Assembly (NCBI GenBank): GCA_022822425.1
Contig: JAJEBS010000226.1
Span: 1 to 41,560 of the forward strand
Length of the DNA stretch: 41,560 nt
Direction of reading: 5' to 3'
Source of the DNA: Gemmatimonadota bacterium
GTDB lineage: Bacteria; Gemmatimonadota; Gemmatimonadetes; Longimicrobiales; Gaopeijiaceae
Shown: in pieces, positions 1,506 through 6,127 of the stretch
Layout of the letters: each line of letters starts with the position of its first letter
Numbering within the stretch: position 1 is the stretch's first letter
Translations under genes and position numbers: made by a program
Notes under the pieces: model-generated
Database searches by the model: none
Told to the model about the DNA's origin: nothing
Seen by the model: the letters and a program-made list of their open reading frames with translations, nothing else

Positions 1506-2189
1506 GTGACAGGACGAGTTGGCGCATTCGCGTGGCGCTTGCGCGGCCACCTGTACCGGAGAATCCGTGAATCGGGGATGGTCCCCGGCCGCGCCGAACT
1601 TGGCGAGAGACTGGGAGCCGGTGCCGGCGATGTGGATCGAGCTCTGGCCTGCCTGGCGGAAGCTCACATCCTGGTTCTGGACGAGCCGGGCGAAATCCGG
1701 ATGGCTCATCCCTTTTCGGCCGTTGAGACGCCCTTCCGGGTGCGTACGCAATGGACGGACTACTGGGCCAACTGCGCCTGGGATGCGCTCGCGATCCCGC
1801 TGCTCCTCGACGTCGACGGCCGGACGCGAACCGCGTGCCCCCGGTCGGGCGCCGCGATCGACCTGGCGGTGACCAACGGGCGGGTCGAACCTGCCGACGG
1901 CGCGGTGGTCCGCTTCCCCGTGCCGGCCAGGCGCTTCTGGGACGACATCGGCTACACCTGACGCAACATCCTGGCCTTCCGGTCGGAAGCGGATGCGGCC
2001 CGGTGGGCGGCGAGGCGGCGTGTCGACCCGGGCGCGACAGTGCCGGTCGAGACGCTGGGCAGGCTGAGCCGCGGGTGGTACGCGGGCCGCCTGAGCGACC
2101 ATTGGCGTCCCTCAACGGCGGAGACGAAGCAGGCCCTCCTGCGCGAGGCGGGTCTCGGAGGTGCCTTCTGGCAGCTCCAACCGTCATGA
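1506..2189 (+). CDS. MerB-family (organomercurial lyase-like) protein, candidate selenoprotein with in-frame TGA
   Basis: The reading frame is open from GTG 1506 to TGA 1959-1961, then open again in the same frame for 75 codons to TGA 2187-2189, giving 227 residues if the first TGA is decoded. The N-terminal ~60 residues look like the winged-helix region of MerB relatives (PGRAELGERLGAGAGDV), followed by MAHPFSAVETPFRVR. The catalytic core motif NCAWDALAIP carries Cys90 and Asp93, matching Cys96 and Asp99 of MerB. The TGA is codon 152 in DDIGYT-U-RNILAFRSE, 62 residues after Cys90; MerB has 63 between Cys96 and catalytic Cys159, and the local alignment (FCCHVHFFAS versus TURNILAFRS) puts the TGA at Cys159. 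After the TGA the protein continues with family-like sequence (WAARRRVDPGATVP, SDHWRP, FWQL). MerB cleaves carbon-mercury bonds; the substrate here is not proven. The stop overlaps the next gene's ATG. The alternatives are a single-base nonsense mutation or a sequence error. Confidence 0.8.
1976..1989 (+). promoter_or_regulatory. Candidate bacterial SECIS hairpin downstream of the TGA
   Basis: CTTCC (1976-1980) pairs perfectly with GGAAG (1985-1989) around a GGTC tetraloop (1981-1984). The loop starts 20 nt after the TGA. In the E. coli fdhF SECIS, as I recall it, the apical loop is also GGUC and starts 19 nt after the UGA, and SelB recognises the loop G and U. A wider pairing of GGCC at 1973-1976 with GGCC at 1997-2000 could lengthen the stem with a bulge. 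Caution: the hairpin encodes the conserved peptide FRSE (TTC CGG TCG GAA), so part of the self-complementarity follows from the protein code. Confidence 0.6.
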
Positions 2190-3244
2190 GGATCTCGACG
2201 GCGCTCGTGGTCGCGGCCGCCGCCGCGTGCGCCGACTCCACGCGCGCGACCTCCGTCGTGGGCGAGCCACTCGAGGGCTGCCCCGATCCCGGCGCGGGCA
2301 CCACGATCGGAGGGCTTCGAGGAACCGGGAGAGACGCCACCCCGTCTCCCGTCCGCCGGCTGGTGCTCATGGGAGGCGGCCCGGAGGAGGACGGCGCCGC
2401 CCGCCGTTTCGCCGAAGCGGCCGCCGGAGGCGACATCGTCGTGTTGCGCGCAACCGGCTCGCTGACCAGCTATCCGGACTACTTCTCGGCGGAGTTGGCC
2501 CCCAGTCCGGCTCCGGCCTCGGTGGTCACGATTCGCACAGACACCCCTCCGCTGGCGGACCACCCGAGCGTCCTCTGCCGCCTCGACAGAGCGGAAGCGA
2601 TATGGCTCGCGGGTGGCAGCCAGTGGGACTATCTCGGACGATGGCCGCATCCGGTCCACGTAGCCATCCGGGAAGCGTGGCGGCGCGGCGCGGCCATGGG
2701 CGGAACCAGCGCAGGAGCGGTTTCGATGGGCGAAGCCGTATTCGACGCCCGGCACGGTACCGTGACATCGGCTGAGGCGCTCGCGGATCCGGCGGACGTC
2801 TCGGTCAGCGTCGGGCCATCCAACCTGCCCCAGCCCGAGCTTCGCAACATGATCGTGGACTCCCACTTCACGGAGCGGTCCCGTGAGGGACGGCTCCTCG
2901 CCTTCCTCGGGCGTCTGCTGGCTCAGCACCGCTCGGGTTCCTTCATCGGGATCGGGATCGACGAAGGGGTCGCGCTCGAGATCGAGGACGACGGCTACAG
3001 GGTGTCCTCGGCGCGAGGCGGGGCCGTCTGGATGTATGAGGCGACCGGTCCCGCCGTCGTTCGGCCCGGCAGGCCGCTCTCGCTGGACGGCATACGGCGC
3101 GTGCGGCTGGCGGATGGCGCCTCGGGTCGCTGGCCCTTCCTGTTCGAGGAGGCCGAGCGTGTTCAGGAGCTCGTGGTGGAGGAGGGGGTGGTGCGGATCC
3201 AGGGCGCGAGCACCGCGGCCGACCGCCGATCAGAACTCCGGTAG
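2186..3244 (+). CDS. Cyanophycinase-like peptidase S51 lipoprotein
   Basis: The start ATG at 2186 overlaps the MerB-like stop in an ATGA, which indicates translational coupling. The 352-residue product begins with a short hydrophobic signal and a lipobox-like AAAC at about residues 12-15, so it is probably lipidated. The body matches the cyanophycinase / S51 serine peptidase fold: VLMGGGPEED near residue 62, LAGGSQWDYL before the active site, and the nucleophile motif GGTSAGAVSMGE with Ser175. IGIGIDEGVALEI in the later part is also typical of the family. Cyanophycinases cut the beta-Asp-Arg polymer cyanophycin, but secreted relatives in other bacteria are generic or unknown peptidases, so the substrate is open. 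The link with a MerB-like gene is unusual. Confidence 0.85.
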   Translation: MRISTALVVAAAAACADSTRATSVVGEPLEGCPDPGAGTTIGGLRGTGRDATPSPVRRLVLMGGGPEEDGAARRFAEAAAGGDIVVLRATGSLTSYPDYFSAELAPSPAPASVVTIRTDTPPLADHPSVLCRLDRAEAIWLAGGSQWDYLGRWPHPVHVAIREAWRRGAAMGGTSAGAVSMGEAVFDARHGTVTSAEALADPADVSVSVGPSNLPQPELRNMIVDSHFTERSREGRLLAFLGRLLAQHRSGSFIGIGIDEGVALEIEDDGYRVSSARGGAVWMYEATGPAVVRPGRPLSLDGIRRVRLADGASGRWPFLFEEAERVQELVVEEGVVRIQGASTAADRRSELR

Positions 3245-3261
3245 GGCGCGTGCCTCCCGGT

Positions 3262-4629
3262 CTATCTCCCCGCTTCGACCCGCACGCAGGCCCGCCGCAG
3301 CCGCTCCACCCCCTCTGCGACCTCCTCGCGGGTGATCAGCATCGAGGGGCCGATGCGGATCACGTGGCCGCCCATGCCGCCGAGGCCGATGAGCACGCCT
3401 TCCTCGCGCGCGGCCTCCAGGAGCGCCTTGCCGAGCTTGGCGCCGGGCTCTTTGGTGACGGGGTCCTCCACCAGTTCCAGGGCGATCATCAGCCCCATTC
3501 CGCGCACGTCGCCGATCCACGGATGGTCGCGCTGGAGCGCTTCCAGCCCTTCGCGTAACTGGCGTCCACGCACGGCGGATCGGGCGGGCGTGTCCTCCTC
3601 GACCATCACGTCCATGGTCGCGCGCGCGGCCGCCATCGACACCGGGCTGCCCCCGTAGGTGGAGAAGGTGAGGCCCGTCCAGGCGGCCGCGATCTCCTCG
3701 CGGGCCAGGGTGCCGCCCACGGGGAAACCGTTCGCGACTCCTTTGGCGACTACCATGATGTCGGGCTCGACCTCCCAGTGCTCAATGCCGAACCAGCGGT
3801 CGCCGGTGCGCCCGAACCCGGCCTGCACCTCGTCGCAGATGAACACGCCCCCGTACGCGCGGATCACCTCGGCGGCACGCGTGTGGTATTCCGGCGGCGG
3901 AACAATGTAGCCACCCACCCCCTGGATGGTCTCGGCGAGCAGCGCAGCGGGGCGCCCCGTGGTCGTGGTCTCGATCACCTCGACCAACTCGTCGATGTAG
4001 CGGTCGACATTGGCGCCGTCGGCGTGCCGGTACGGATACGGCGCGATGGCGTGCCGGATCGGGGCCATCGCCGGAAGCGGCTTCCACTGGGCCTGGCCGG
4101 TCAGGCCCGTAGCCAGCGTGCTGCGCCCGGAGTAGCCGAGCCGCAGGCCGATGATCTCGCTGCGCCGGGTATGCATCTGCGCCAGCATGACCGCGGTTTC
4201 GATGGCCTCTGTGCCGCTGTTGGTGAACATGACCTGGTCGAGGCCGGCAGGCGCGAGACCGGCAAGCCGCTCGGCCGCGGCCACGTAGGGCTCCGTCACA
4301 TAGAGGTTCGAGGTGTGGCCCAGGCGGGCGACCTGATCCTGCACGGCGGCAACCACTCTCGGGTGACAGTGTCCGATGGACGTGGTCAGAATGCCCGCGA
4401 AGAGGTCGAGATACTCTCGCCCGTCAGCGCCCCTGGCCCGCACTCCCTCCGCCTCCACGAGCACCAGGGGCCCGTCGTACAGCGGCTTGACGCAGGGGAA
4501 GATGGAGGCGCGCTGGCGCTCGATCAGTTCGGCCGCATCGACCTCTCGCGAGTCGGGCGCACCCGACTCCGCCACCTGCGGGCGCGCCTCTGCCGCTGGC
4601 GCTGGAGCCACGGTCCCGGGAGCCGTCAT
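3262..4629 (-). CDS. Class III aminotransferase (AGXT2 / omega-aminotransferase type)
   Basis: This 455-residue PLP enzyme has the full fold-type I, class III layout: NSGTEAIETA (phosphate binding, about 137-146), CDEVQAGFGRTG with the PLP-ring Asp266, and Lys296 in VVAKGVANGFPVGG. The C-terminal small domain ends with VIRIGPSMLITREEV. Members move an amino group from beta- or omega-amino acids (beta-alanine, aminoisobutyrate, GABA) or alanine to pyruvate, glyoxylate or 2-oxoglutarate. The usual GYHGR motif reads GYSGR here, a minor substitution. It lies 19 nt downstream of mmsA on the same strand, so aminoisobutyrate or beta-alanine is a plausible substrate, with mmsA oxidising the resulting semialdehyde. 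Family is certain; substrate is inferred from the neighbour. Confidence 0.92.
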   Translation of the reverse strand: MTAPGTVAPAPAAEARPQVAESGAPDSREVDAAELIERQRASIFPCVKPLYDGPLVLVEAEGVRARGADGREYLDLFAGILTTSIGHCHPRVVAAVQDQVARLGHTSNLYVTEPYVAAAERLAGLAPAGLDQVMFTNSGTEAIETAVMLAQMHTRRSEIIGLRLGYSGRSTLATGLTGQAQWKPLPAMAPIRHAIAPYPYRHADGANVDRYIDELVEVIETTTTGRPAALLAETIQGVGGYIVPPPEYHTRAAEVIRAYGGVFICDEVQAGFGRTGDRWFGIEHWEVEPDIMVVAKGVANGFPVGGTLAREEIAAAWTGLTFSTYGGSPVSMAAARATMDVMVEEDTPARSAVRGRQLREGLEALQRDHPWIGDVRGMGLMIALELVEDPVTKEPGAKLGKALLEAAREEGVLIGLGGMGGHVIRIGPSMLITREEVAEGVERLRRACVRVEAGR

Positions 4630-4648
4630 CGGATTGTGTTCACCCGTG

Positions 4649-6127
4649 TTACCACCGCGTGATCACCACGCGCTTGTCGGTGAAGAACTCGACGGAGTCA
4701 CGGCCCTGGGCCTTGAGATCGCCGAAGAAGGAGCCGCGCGAGCCTCCGAAGGGGAAGAAGGCCATCGGCGCCGCCACGCCGATGTTGATGCCGATCATGC
4801 TGATGCCTGCGTGGTAGCGGAACTCGCGTGCCGCGCGTCCGCTCGTCGTGAAGATCGAGGTGGCGTTGCCGTACTCGCTCCGGTGCATGAGCTCGATGGC
4901 GTCCTCGACGGTATCGGCCCTGGACATCCCCATCACCGGCCCGAAGATCTCGTCCTTGCCGATCGCCATGTCGGGATGCACGTCCTCGAAGATGGTCGGG
5001 CCGACCCAGTTGCCGTCGGGGTAGCCGGGCACCCGGGCGTCGCGACCATCCATCGTCAGCGACGCGCCTTCCTTCACGCCGCTGTCGATATAGCCCACCA
5101 CCCGGTCGCGGTGGCTGGCGGAGATCACCGGGCCCATGTCCACCCCGTCCTCGAGCCCGTTGCCCACGCGCAGGGAGGCCGAGCGGTCGAGAATGCGCTC
5201 GCGGATGTTCGCGTAGGCGTCGGCCACGCCCACCACGACGCTGCCCGCGAGACAGCGCTGCCCGGCCGAGCCGAAGATCGACGACACCACCGCGTCGGCG
5301 ACCAGGTCGTAGTCCGCGTCCGGGAGCACGATCATGTGGTTCTTGGCCCCGCCGAGCGCCTGCACGCGCTTGCCGGCCGCGCCCGCCTTCCGGTACAGGA
5401 TGCGCGCGACTTGGCTCGAGCCCACGAAGGACACCCCCGCGATACCGGGATGCTCGAGCAGGGCGGTCACCGCCTCCCGGTCGCCGTGCACGACATTGAG
5501 GACGCCCGGGGGCAGCCCCGCCTGCTCGGCCAGCTCCACCACCCGCTGGTGGGTGAGCGGATCCTGCTCGCTGGGCTTGAGCACCACCGTGTTGCCCGCC
5601 GCCACGGCGTAAGGCCAGAACCACATCGGGATCATCACGGGGAAGTTGTAGGGAGAGACGACGGCGAAGACCCCGAGCGGCTGCCGGATAGCCTCGCAGT
5701 CGATGCCCGGCGCCACGTCCTCCAGTATATCGCCCATCATCAGCGTGGGGATGCCGCAGGCGTGTTCGACGTTCTCGATTCCGCGCTGAAGCTCGCCCCG
5801 GCACTCGTCCAGGTTCTTTCCGTGTTCGATGACCAGGGAGCGGGCCAGCGCGTCCTTGTGCTCGTCGAGCAGATGCTTCAGACGGAAGAGCACCCGGGCG
5901 CGGTCGACCGCGGGCGTGCGGCGCCAACCGGGGAAGGCCGCGGTGGCTGCGGCGACGGCGGTGTCCACATCCGCGCCCGTGGAGAGCGGCACCCGTCCCA
6001 GCGGCTCACCGGTGGTGGGATTTGTTACGGGCAGCGACCCCGTGCCCGATGGCGCCGTCCAGCGGCCCGCGACGTAATTGCGGATGGGCTGGGAGGAAGG
6101 GTCGATGGTGGCGGTATCGGCGGACAT
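4649..6127 (-). CDS. mmsA: CoA-acylating methylmalonate-semialdehyde dehydrogenase
   Basis: The protein (492 residues, normal family length) matches MmsA/IolA end to end. It has the NAD-binding aldehyde dehydrogenase core (SPYNFPVMIPMWF, LKPSEQDP), the catalytic Cys292 in FGSAGQRCLAGS, and the very conserved ending FFGDLKAQGRDSVEFF then TDKRVVITRW. It converts methylmalonate semialdehyde (or malonate semialdehyde) plus CoA and NAD to propionyl-CoA (or acetyl-CoA) with CO2, in valine, thymine or beta-alanine breakdown. It is the first gene of a two-gene unit with the aminotransferase downstream. A pair of direct repeats lies about 100 bp upstream. Confidence 0.96.
   Translation of the reverse strand: MSADTATIDPSSQPIRNYVAGRWTAPSGTGSLPVTNPTTGEPLGRVPLSTGADVDTAVAAATAAFPGWRRTPAVDRARVLFRLKHLLDEHKDALARSLVIEHGKNLDECRGELQRGIENVEHACGIPTLMMGDILEDVAPGIDCEAIRQPLGVFAVVSPYNFPVMIPMWFWPYAVAAGNTVVLKPSEQDPLTHQRVVELAEQAGLPPGVLNVVHGDREAVTALLEHPGIAGVSFVGSSQVARILYRKAGAAGKRVQALGGAKNHMIVLPDADYDLVADAVVSSIFGSAGQRCLAGSVVVGVADAYANIRERILDRSASLRVGNGLEDGVDMGPVISASHRDRVVGYIDSGVKEGASLTMDGRDARVPGYPDGNWVGPTIFEDVHPDMAIGKDEIFGPVMGMSRADTVEDAIELMHRSEYGNATSIFTTSGRAAREFRYHAGISMIGINIGVAAPMAFFPFGGSRGSFFGDLKAQGRDSVEFFTDKRVVITRW

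Follow-up and report, generated by a model that had tools for sequence, protein, structure and literature searches.

The closest described relatives of the protein analysed here are the organomercurial lyase MerB and the MerB-like protein SaoL, the latter of which goes with Sao ABC transporters. Three residues of MerB (i.e. Cys96, Asp99 and Cys159) are described as essential in the accessible text of one study (PMC8261052). SaoL appears as a 'MerB-like organometallic lyase' with accession NF040728 and the selenocysteine (Sec) motif CU in the accessible part of a 2026 review (PMC13188914), and an alkylmercury lyase MerB-like selenoprotein is given, again as NF040728, in that of a 2022 review (PMC9312934). 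The original prediction knew of no described Sec-containing protein of the MerB family; SaoL was already in print (PMC13188914) and, as it is catalogued, a Sec-containing MerB-like protein is not new in kind. A word search of the accessible text of three selenoproteome papers (PMC2398784, PMC5029168 and PMC12013277) found no mention of MerB, and no description of the TGA-containing clade reported below was found in the literature text available to our search.

The locus lies in a 41,560-nucleotide stretch of a Gemmatimonadota genome (contig JAJEBS010000226.1; hereafter the window), which forms one contig (C165) of a 4.40-Mb draft assembly (G000) of 339 contigs with 89% completeness and 5% contamination. 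Re-reading of the frame confirmed that the 227 codons beginning at GTG 1506 are interrupted by a sole in-frame TGA at codon 152, after which 75 further codons lead to a TGA stop (2187–2189) overlapping the ATG (2186) with which the next gene begins (Table 1). An alternative in-frame GTG start is present at 1503; the GTG at 1506 was judged by eye to be a better fit to the GGGGAGA at 1494–1500. Cys90 and Asp93 fall within the sequence NCAWD and the TGA codon within GYTURNILAF. In phmmer alignments, Cys90 and the TGA codon aligned with both catalytic Cys residues of MerB and MerB2, and Asp93 aligned with the Asp of MerB. The coordinates, residue numbers and correspondence to Cys96, Asp99 and Cys159 given in the original prediction were thereby upheld. 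With full read-through, the protein passed the gathering score of the PF03243 superfamily (95.1 bits; cut-off 27), while the portions upstream and downstream of the TGA scored 59.5 and 17.4 bits alone, the latter being below the cut-off of 27.

Table 1. Positions of the candidate selenoprotein gene, its key codons and its adjoining features in the window.
Feature	Position	Strand	Remarks
Candidate Sec-MerB gene	1506..2189	+	GTG start, TGA stop; 227 aa, Sec (predicted) at 152; Pfam MerB 95.1 bits; AlphaFold pLDDT 92
UGA codon, predicted selenocysteine	1959..1961	+	Position equivalent to MerB Cys159; 56 TGA and 13 Cys among 69 distinct copies
Cys90 codon	1773..1775	+	Equivalent of MerB Cys96
Asp93 codon	1782..1784	+	Equivalent of MerB Asp99
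Cys111 codon	1836..1838	+	Equivalent of MerB Cys117 (structural)
Bacterial SECIS hairpin (predicted), CUUCC-GGUC-GGAAG	1976..1989	+	Apical loop 1981–1984; fits the quoted bSECIS loop, stem and spacing rules
Peptidase S51 family gene	2186..3244	+	Overlaps stop of the Sec gene; Pfam PF03575 31.4 bits, cut-off 23.9

The codon at the Sec site was examined in relatives of the gene. Matches at 1e-3 were present in 21 of 98 genomes, including that of the window, and 18 of these had a TGA at the site. A search of 395 genomes of the phylum using an alignment-based model at 1e-15, in which up to 7 candidates were scored in each genome, produced at least 70 matches in at least 68 genomes, with an in-frame TGA in at least 52 and none in at least 18 (several of them partial or distant). 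This recurrence of an in-frame TGA across the phylum is far beyond chance. Scanning of named genome contigs produced nine loci, all with TGA, three of which were in records titled Acidobacteria or Acidimicrobiia. Among the fetched copies, the codon was TGA, TGC or TGT wherever the site was covered; the match of L034 stops short of it. Removal of duplicates left 74 copies, and exclusion of five short or decayed copies (L033, L058, L035, L037 and L115) brought the set to 69 distinct copies (counting that of the window), each aligned over 150 positions or more. Other members of the family had been predicted to be informative as to Cys or TGA at this codon, and 56 of the 69 (including the window's) had TGA, 13 had Cys and none had anything else, although these counts are not independent events since the copies are related. 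The UGA thus aligns with a Cys of homologues and is common to other species, as expected of a bacterial selenoprotein. No extra in-frame TGA was observed in the aligned part of any of the 56 TGA copies. Within the phylum, TGA copies were spread over seven groups at family level (f1, f2, f4, f6, f7, f8 and f9), and they also occurred in records titled Acidobacteria and Acidimicrobiia, indicating that the TGA is not a sequencing error. In the tree, the copy titled Acidobacteria (L043) was placed amid members of the window's family, which may reflect transfer or a mistaken title.

Several individual copies differed from this pattern. The copy in genome G049 is degenerate and has a second TGA. An Acidimicrobiia genome bin (L046) has two divergent copies, at 3019–3660 (+) and 4214–4807 (-), both with TGA and hairpin. 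A copy on Rubrobacter radiotolerans plasmid NZ_CP007515 (L058, 3031–3261) is annotated as an 89-aa 'organomercurial lyase' ending at the family's TGA; it lacks the hairpin, its downstream similarity is in another frame and it looks decayed. Plasmid copies occurred in seven records, and the four examined comprised three Cys copies and this decayed TGA copy. A protein scan of viral contigs found no relative. A scan with the hairpin pattern identified 12 viral contigs, of which 11 had no match to the family model and one (L128, 14611–14641, from IMG/VR) contained a family fragment with TGA and hairpin, the preceding part of which was unmatched by the family model and which is perhaps a chimeric assembly. 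After these scans of viral contigs and the reading of four of the seven plasmid records, spread by phages or plasmids was rejected.

Selection was assessed on both sides of the TGA for the window copy and four genus relatives (10 pairs). The dN/dS values were 0.21–0.39 after the TGA and 0.14–0.34 before it, showing that the downstream portion evolves under purifying selection. Decay of a gene whose close homologues have Cys was another concern of the original prediction; close homologues were found to have TGA too, and the window copy and its genus relatives were free of decay.

The apical part of the E. coli fdhF SECIS is a small hairpin with a GGUC loop ~20 nt past the UGA. The hairpin predicted downstream of the window's UGA is like this element in its GGUC loop and spacing, whereas its stem is shorter and the remaining sequence is unrelated. 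The bSECIS model, as given in the accessible text of the 2026 review, has a loop of 3–9 nt with a G in the first two places, a stem of 4–16 bp, a loop location 16–37 nt past the UGA and a minimum free energy of -7.5 kcal/mol or lower (PMC13188914). The loop (GGUC, starting at nt 20 after the UGA), the 5-bp stem and the spacing of the window hairpin all conform to these rules. In folding calculations, a 39-nt stretch formed the hairpin at -15.5 kcal/mol, a mild departure from shuffled sequences (z -1.36); the 18-nt hairpin alone reached -5.9 kcal/mol, which is again mild (z -1.04) and weaker than the published -7.5, and other pairs were preferred in 48-nt and 31-nt stretches (z -0.03 and 0.60, respectively). 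The hairpin pattern was rejected as a marker of further selenoproteins in G000, where its sole match was the window's copy.

The hairpin, or a close variant, was present in 56/56 TGA copies at 15–28 nt after the UGA, with a GGUC loop in 52 and a GGGN loop in four. In the Cys copies the hairpin is not kept, and GGUC was present in 3 of 13. The sequence is nearly fixed in TGA copies even at synonymous positions: the codons in the middle of the hairpin were TTC for Phe (56/56), CGG for Arg (56/56), TCG for Ser (52/52) and GAA for Glu (44/55), as compared to usages of 84%, 32%, 38% and 30%, respectively, elsewhere in the same genes. Pairing was intact in 98.9% of cells among 54 distinct rows versus 42–68% when the partners were slid. 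Two-sided changes were absent from the five core pairs in these 54 rows because these pairs hardly vary, and so covariation speaks neither for nor against them. Covariation was seen at a sixth pair outside these (20 cells; a level reached in 0/500 shuffles), but this pair fails in 13/54 sequences and may reflect amino-acid choice. A gene of the ordinary truncated or decayed MerB-like kind, with the TGA as a stop or an error, would be in keeping with the below-cut-off Pfam score of the downstream portion alone and with the existence of decayed relatives (L033 and L058). This explanation is highly improbable given that the TGA is common to many genera with a similar length following it (72–89 codons in the copies listed), and given the purifying selection, the hairpin and the Sec machinery described below; conservation of TGA and hairpin together with selection after the TGA led us to reject truncation, sequencing error and pseudogene formation.

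The Cys copies include a sister subclade of 11 rows (L031, L100, L101, L103, L105, L108, L111, L112, L114, L056 and L057). These proteins resemble those of the TGA clade in being alignable throughout, with Trp191 and Tyr192 of the C-terminal part present in 11/11, but differ in having Cys at 152 and Cys in place of Asp93, in lacking Cys111 and in not keeping the hairpin. Their site thus consists of C-x-x-C plus Cys152, and to judge from these residues the members of the subclade may bind metal instead of acting as lyases. In a quick tree of 71 rows, the subclade formed one branch (SH-aLRT 99) and two Sec/Cys changes were needed versus a mean of 13.8 after shuffling; the site was blanked in TGA rows only, three long rows were flagged and, as the root is not settled, neither is the direction of the Sec/Cys change.

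The presence of Sec machinery was investigated in the window's genome and in other carriers. The original prediction had proposed a search for selA, selB, selC and selD, and selA, selB, selD and a tRNA-Sec(UCA) are all present in G000. SelA (457.9 bits; its gene split over two contigs, with the first part elsewhere), SelB (307.7 bits) and SelD (293.5 bits) exceeded their curated cut-offs, and tRNA-Sec scored 74.8 bits (cut-off 47), with ARAGORN also calling a tRNA-SeC with anticodon tca. Among 14 named control genomes, 1, 2, 2 and 5 were over cut-off for SelA, SelB, SelD and the tRNA-Sec model, respectively; as weaker matches also occurred in control genomes, only matches over cut-off were counted. 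SelB was over cut-off in 16/18 TGA carriers versus 45/80 other genomes of the first set of 98, and in 34/36 further TGA carriers versus 2/9 further Cys-subclade carriers (among them G129, with a partial copy only). When pooled with G068, SelB was over cut-off in 50/54 TGA carriers versus 3/10 Gemmatimonadota carriers of the Cys subclade (Fisher P = 5e-5, ignoring kinship). Four TGA carriers lacked SelB over cut-off: two (G017 and G020) have a full SelA, one (G378) has a SelA fragment and one (G410, 81% complete) has neither. The seven Cys-subclade carriers without SelB were also without SelA, and the three with SelB have SelA.

An in-frame TGA could also arise if UGA were decoded as a different amino acid (e.g. 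Trp) through an altered code or a suppressor. The chance of this is negligible: the gene's own stop is TGA in the window and in many relatives, a fact that led us to reject this explanation, while non-TGA copies invariably have Cys at the aligned position and a Sec tRNA is present. Insertion of Sec at the position that is catalytic in MerB is instead strongly supported by the restriction of the site to TGA or Cys, the kept hairpin, the sel machinery and selection past the TGA. We consider Sec insertion at this position very probable, and a separate estimate for Sec insertion placed it close to certainty.

The predicted protein was then compared with MerB and SaoL. An AlphaFold model from 11 sequences had a pLDDT of 92 and a pTM of 0.90, and Foldseek ranks 1–11 were all MerB or MerB2 crystal and NMR structures, including Hg-bound forms, with query TM-scores of 0.47–0.63, rmsd values of 3.4–6.8 and 21–23% identity. 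On this model, the protein is predicted to fold like MerB. Besides the predicted fold, it shares with MerB (PF03243; PDB 3f2f, 3f0o and 5c17) the Pfam domain, equivalents of Cys96, Asp99 and Cys117 and the spacing of the catalytic sites; it differs in the predicted Sec in place of Cys159, in Arg rather than Cys at the place of Cys160, in the low identity of the structural alignments and in the lack of mer genes among the neighbours scanned. Three of the four residues of the canonical MerB set are therefore present, the fourth (Cys159) being a predicted Sec. The Cys90 equivalent was Cys in all 56 TGA, 11 Cys-subclade and 4 other MerB-like rows. The Asp93 equivalent was Asp in 55/56 TGA rows (Glu in one) and in 4/4 other MerB-like rows but Cys in 11/11 Cys-subclade rows, while the Cys111 equivalent was Cys in 50/56, 1/4 and 0/11, respectively.

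At the level of protein families, the window protein reached the cut-off of no NCBIfam 20.0 model. The MerB models NF009710 and NF033555 gave 47.1 and 40 bits against cut-offs of 193 and 200, and the SaoL model NF040728 gave 38.3 bits against a curated cut-off of 140. Like SaoL, the window protein is a MerB-like (here predicted) selenoprotein, and membership of SaoL that has gone unrecognised would agree with the superfamily in common and with the listing of SaoL as a selenoprotein. Such membership is very unlikely in view of the low profile score, of the residue before Sec (T-U in 55/56 and I-U in 1/56 TGA rows, never the C-U of the motif listed for SaoL) and of the lack of any ABC-transporter family in a scan of 20 ORFs from the neighbourhoods of 10 loci. 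The two are set apart by profile score and listed motif rather than by sequence alignment, and members of the present clade came from Gemmatimonadota and from records with the titles Acidobacteria and Acidimicrobiia. Scores far below both cut-offs suggest that the TGA clade is distinct from described SaoL and MerB.

The genomic neighbourhood was examined for indications of function. Of the two flanking genes in the window, one encodes a peptidase S51 and the other a protein with no Pfam match. In the five genus relatives carrying the Sec gene, this gene is directly followed by a relative of the S51 gene and, among loci compared, S51 relatives adjoin genus copies only; the two genes are perhaps translationally coupled. 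Among 45 loci compared, no neighbour recurred beyond small groups of loci, and a shared operon was rejected; outside the genus the neighbours differ. A scan of 20 neighbouring ORFs from 10 loci, selected out of the ORF lists of 14 loci, revealed no mer gene. MerA was over cut-off in 12/98 genomes (2/18 TGA carriers versus 10/80 others), such that there is no association with the TGA copy and MerA is uninformative as a marker of function; in G000 (89% complete) no MerA was over cut-off, the best match scoring 353 of 454 bits. Two MerA-like frames below cut-off, in genomes G029 (C26:57853-59205) and G016 (C11:3286-4638), have one internal TGA each and are possible further selenoproteins.

These observations bear on whether the protein is a lyase. 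A selenoprotein other than an organomercurial lyase, in which Cys90 and Sec152 form a thiol-selenol redox couple or in which another soft metal(loid) or organic compound is bound or cleaved, is a substantial possibility, though one we rate below an even chance. The lack of mer genes among the scanned ORFs, the lack of association with MerA and the 47.1 bits against the curated MerB cut-off of 193 are all in its favour. Against it, the set of residues retained beside Cys90 and Sec152 (i.e. Asp93 in 55/56 and Cys111 in 50/56) is that of MerB, and the best structural matches are to MerB, Hg-bound forms included. MerB-type lysis of organometals is slightly favoured. Differing neighbours, the lack of a mer gene and the rarity of MerA make a stand-alone organometal lyase our lead, with mercury as the best guess for the metal; the likelihood that mercury is the natural metal falls just short of even. 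In the accessible text of a review, selone mimics of organomercurial lyase outpace their sulfur analogues (PMC11639659), which makes an advantage of Sec plausible on chemical grounds. On the other hand, the release of product might be slowed by tight binding of Hg to Se. The genomic context lends no support to the faster attack on carbon-mercury bonds that the original prediction thought a Sec could bring.

What the computations show is a conserved codon, a hairpin, the Sec machinery and a predicted MerB-like fold, and the organometal chemistry is what we infer. At the UGA, SelB with Sec-tRNA-Sec(UCA) would bind the hairpin and insert Sec instead of allowing termination. The product would be a 227-residue MerB-fold protein with a reactive trio of Cys90, Asp93 and Sec152. 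The Sec152 selenolate and Cys90 thiolate would capture the metal of an organometal, with R-Hg+ as the leading candidate, and Asp93 would give a proton to the carbon, whereupon R-H would leave. The metal would then stay on Cys90 and Sec152 until taken by small thiols or another protein.

A wider reading, in which these proteins are widespread, unannotated, selenium-dependent organomercurial or organometal lyases without MerA, with Sec for the attacking Cys159, is held tentatively. If it is true, gene callers cut the gene at the UGA and the demethylation capacity of Gemmatimonadota and their neighbours has been overlooked. According to its accessible text, a 2026 ocean survey discarded merB sequences without Cys-159 (PMC12874090), so that Sec forms would be uncountable in this way. 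The conserved hairpin is a simple signature for re-annotating such genes. If carbon-metal bonds are cleaved, the family would constitute a natural experiment on selenium versus sulfur at the MerB site, with the Cys sister clade as the comparison.
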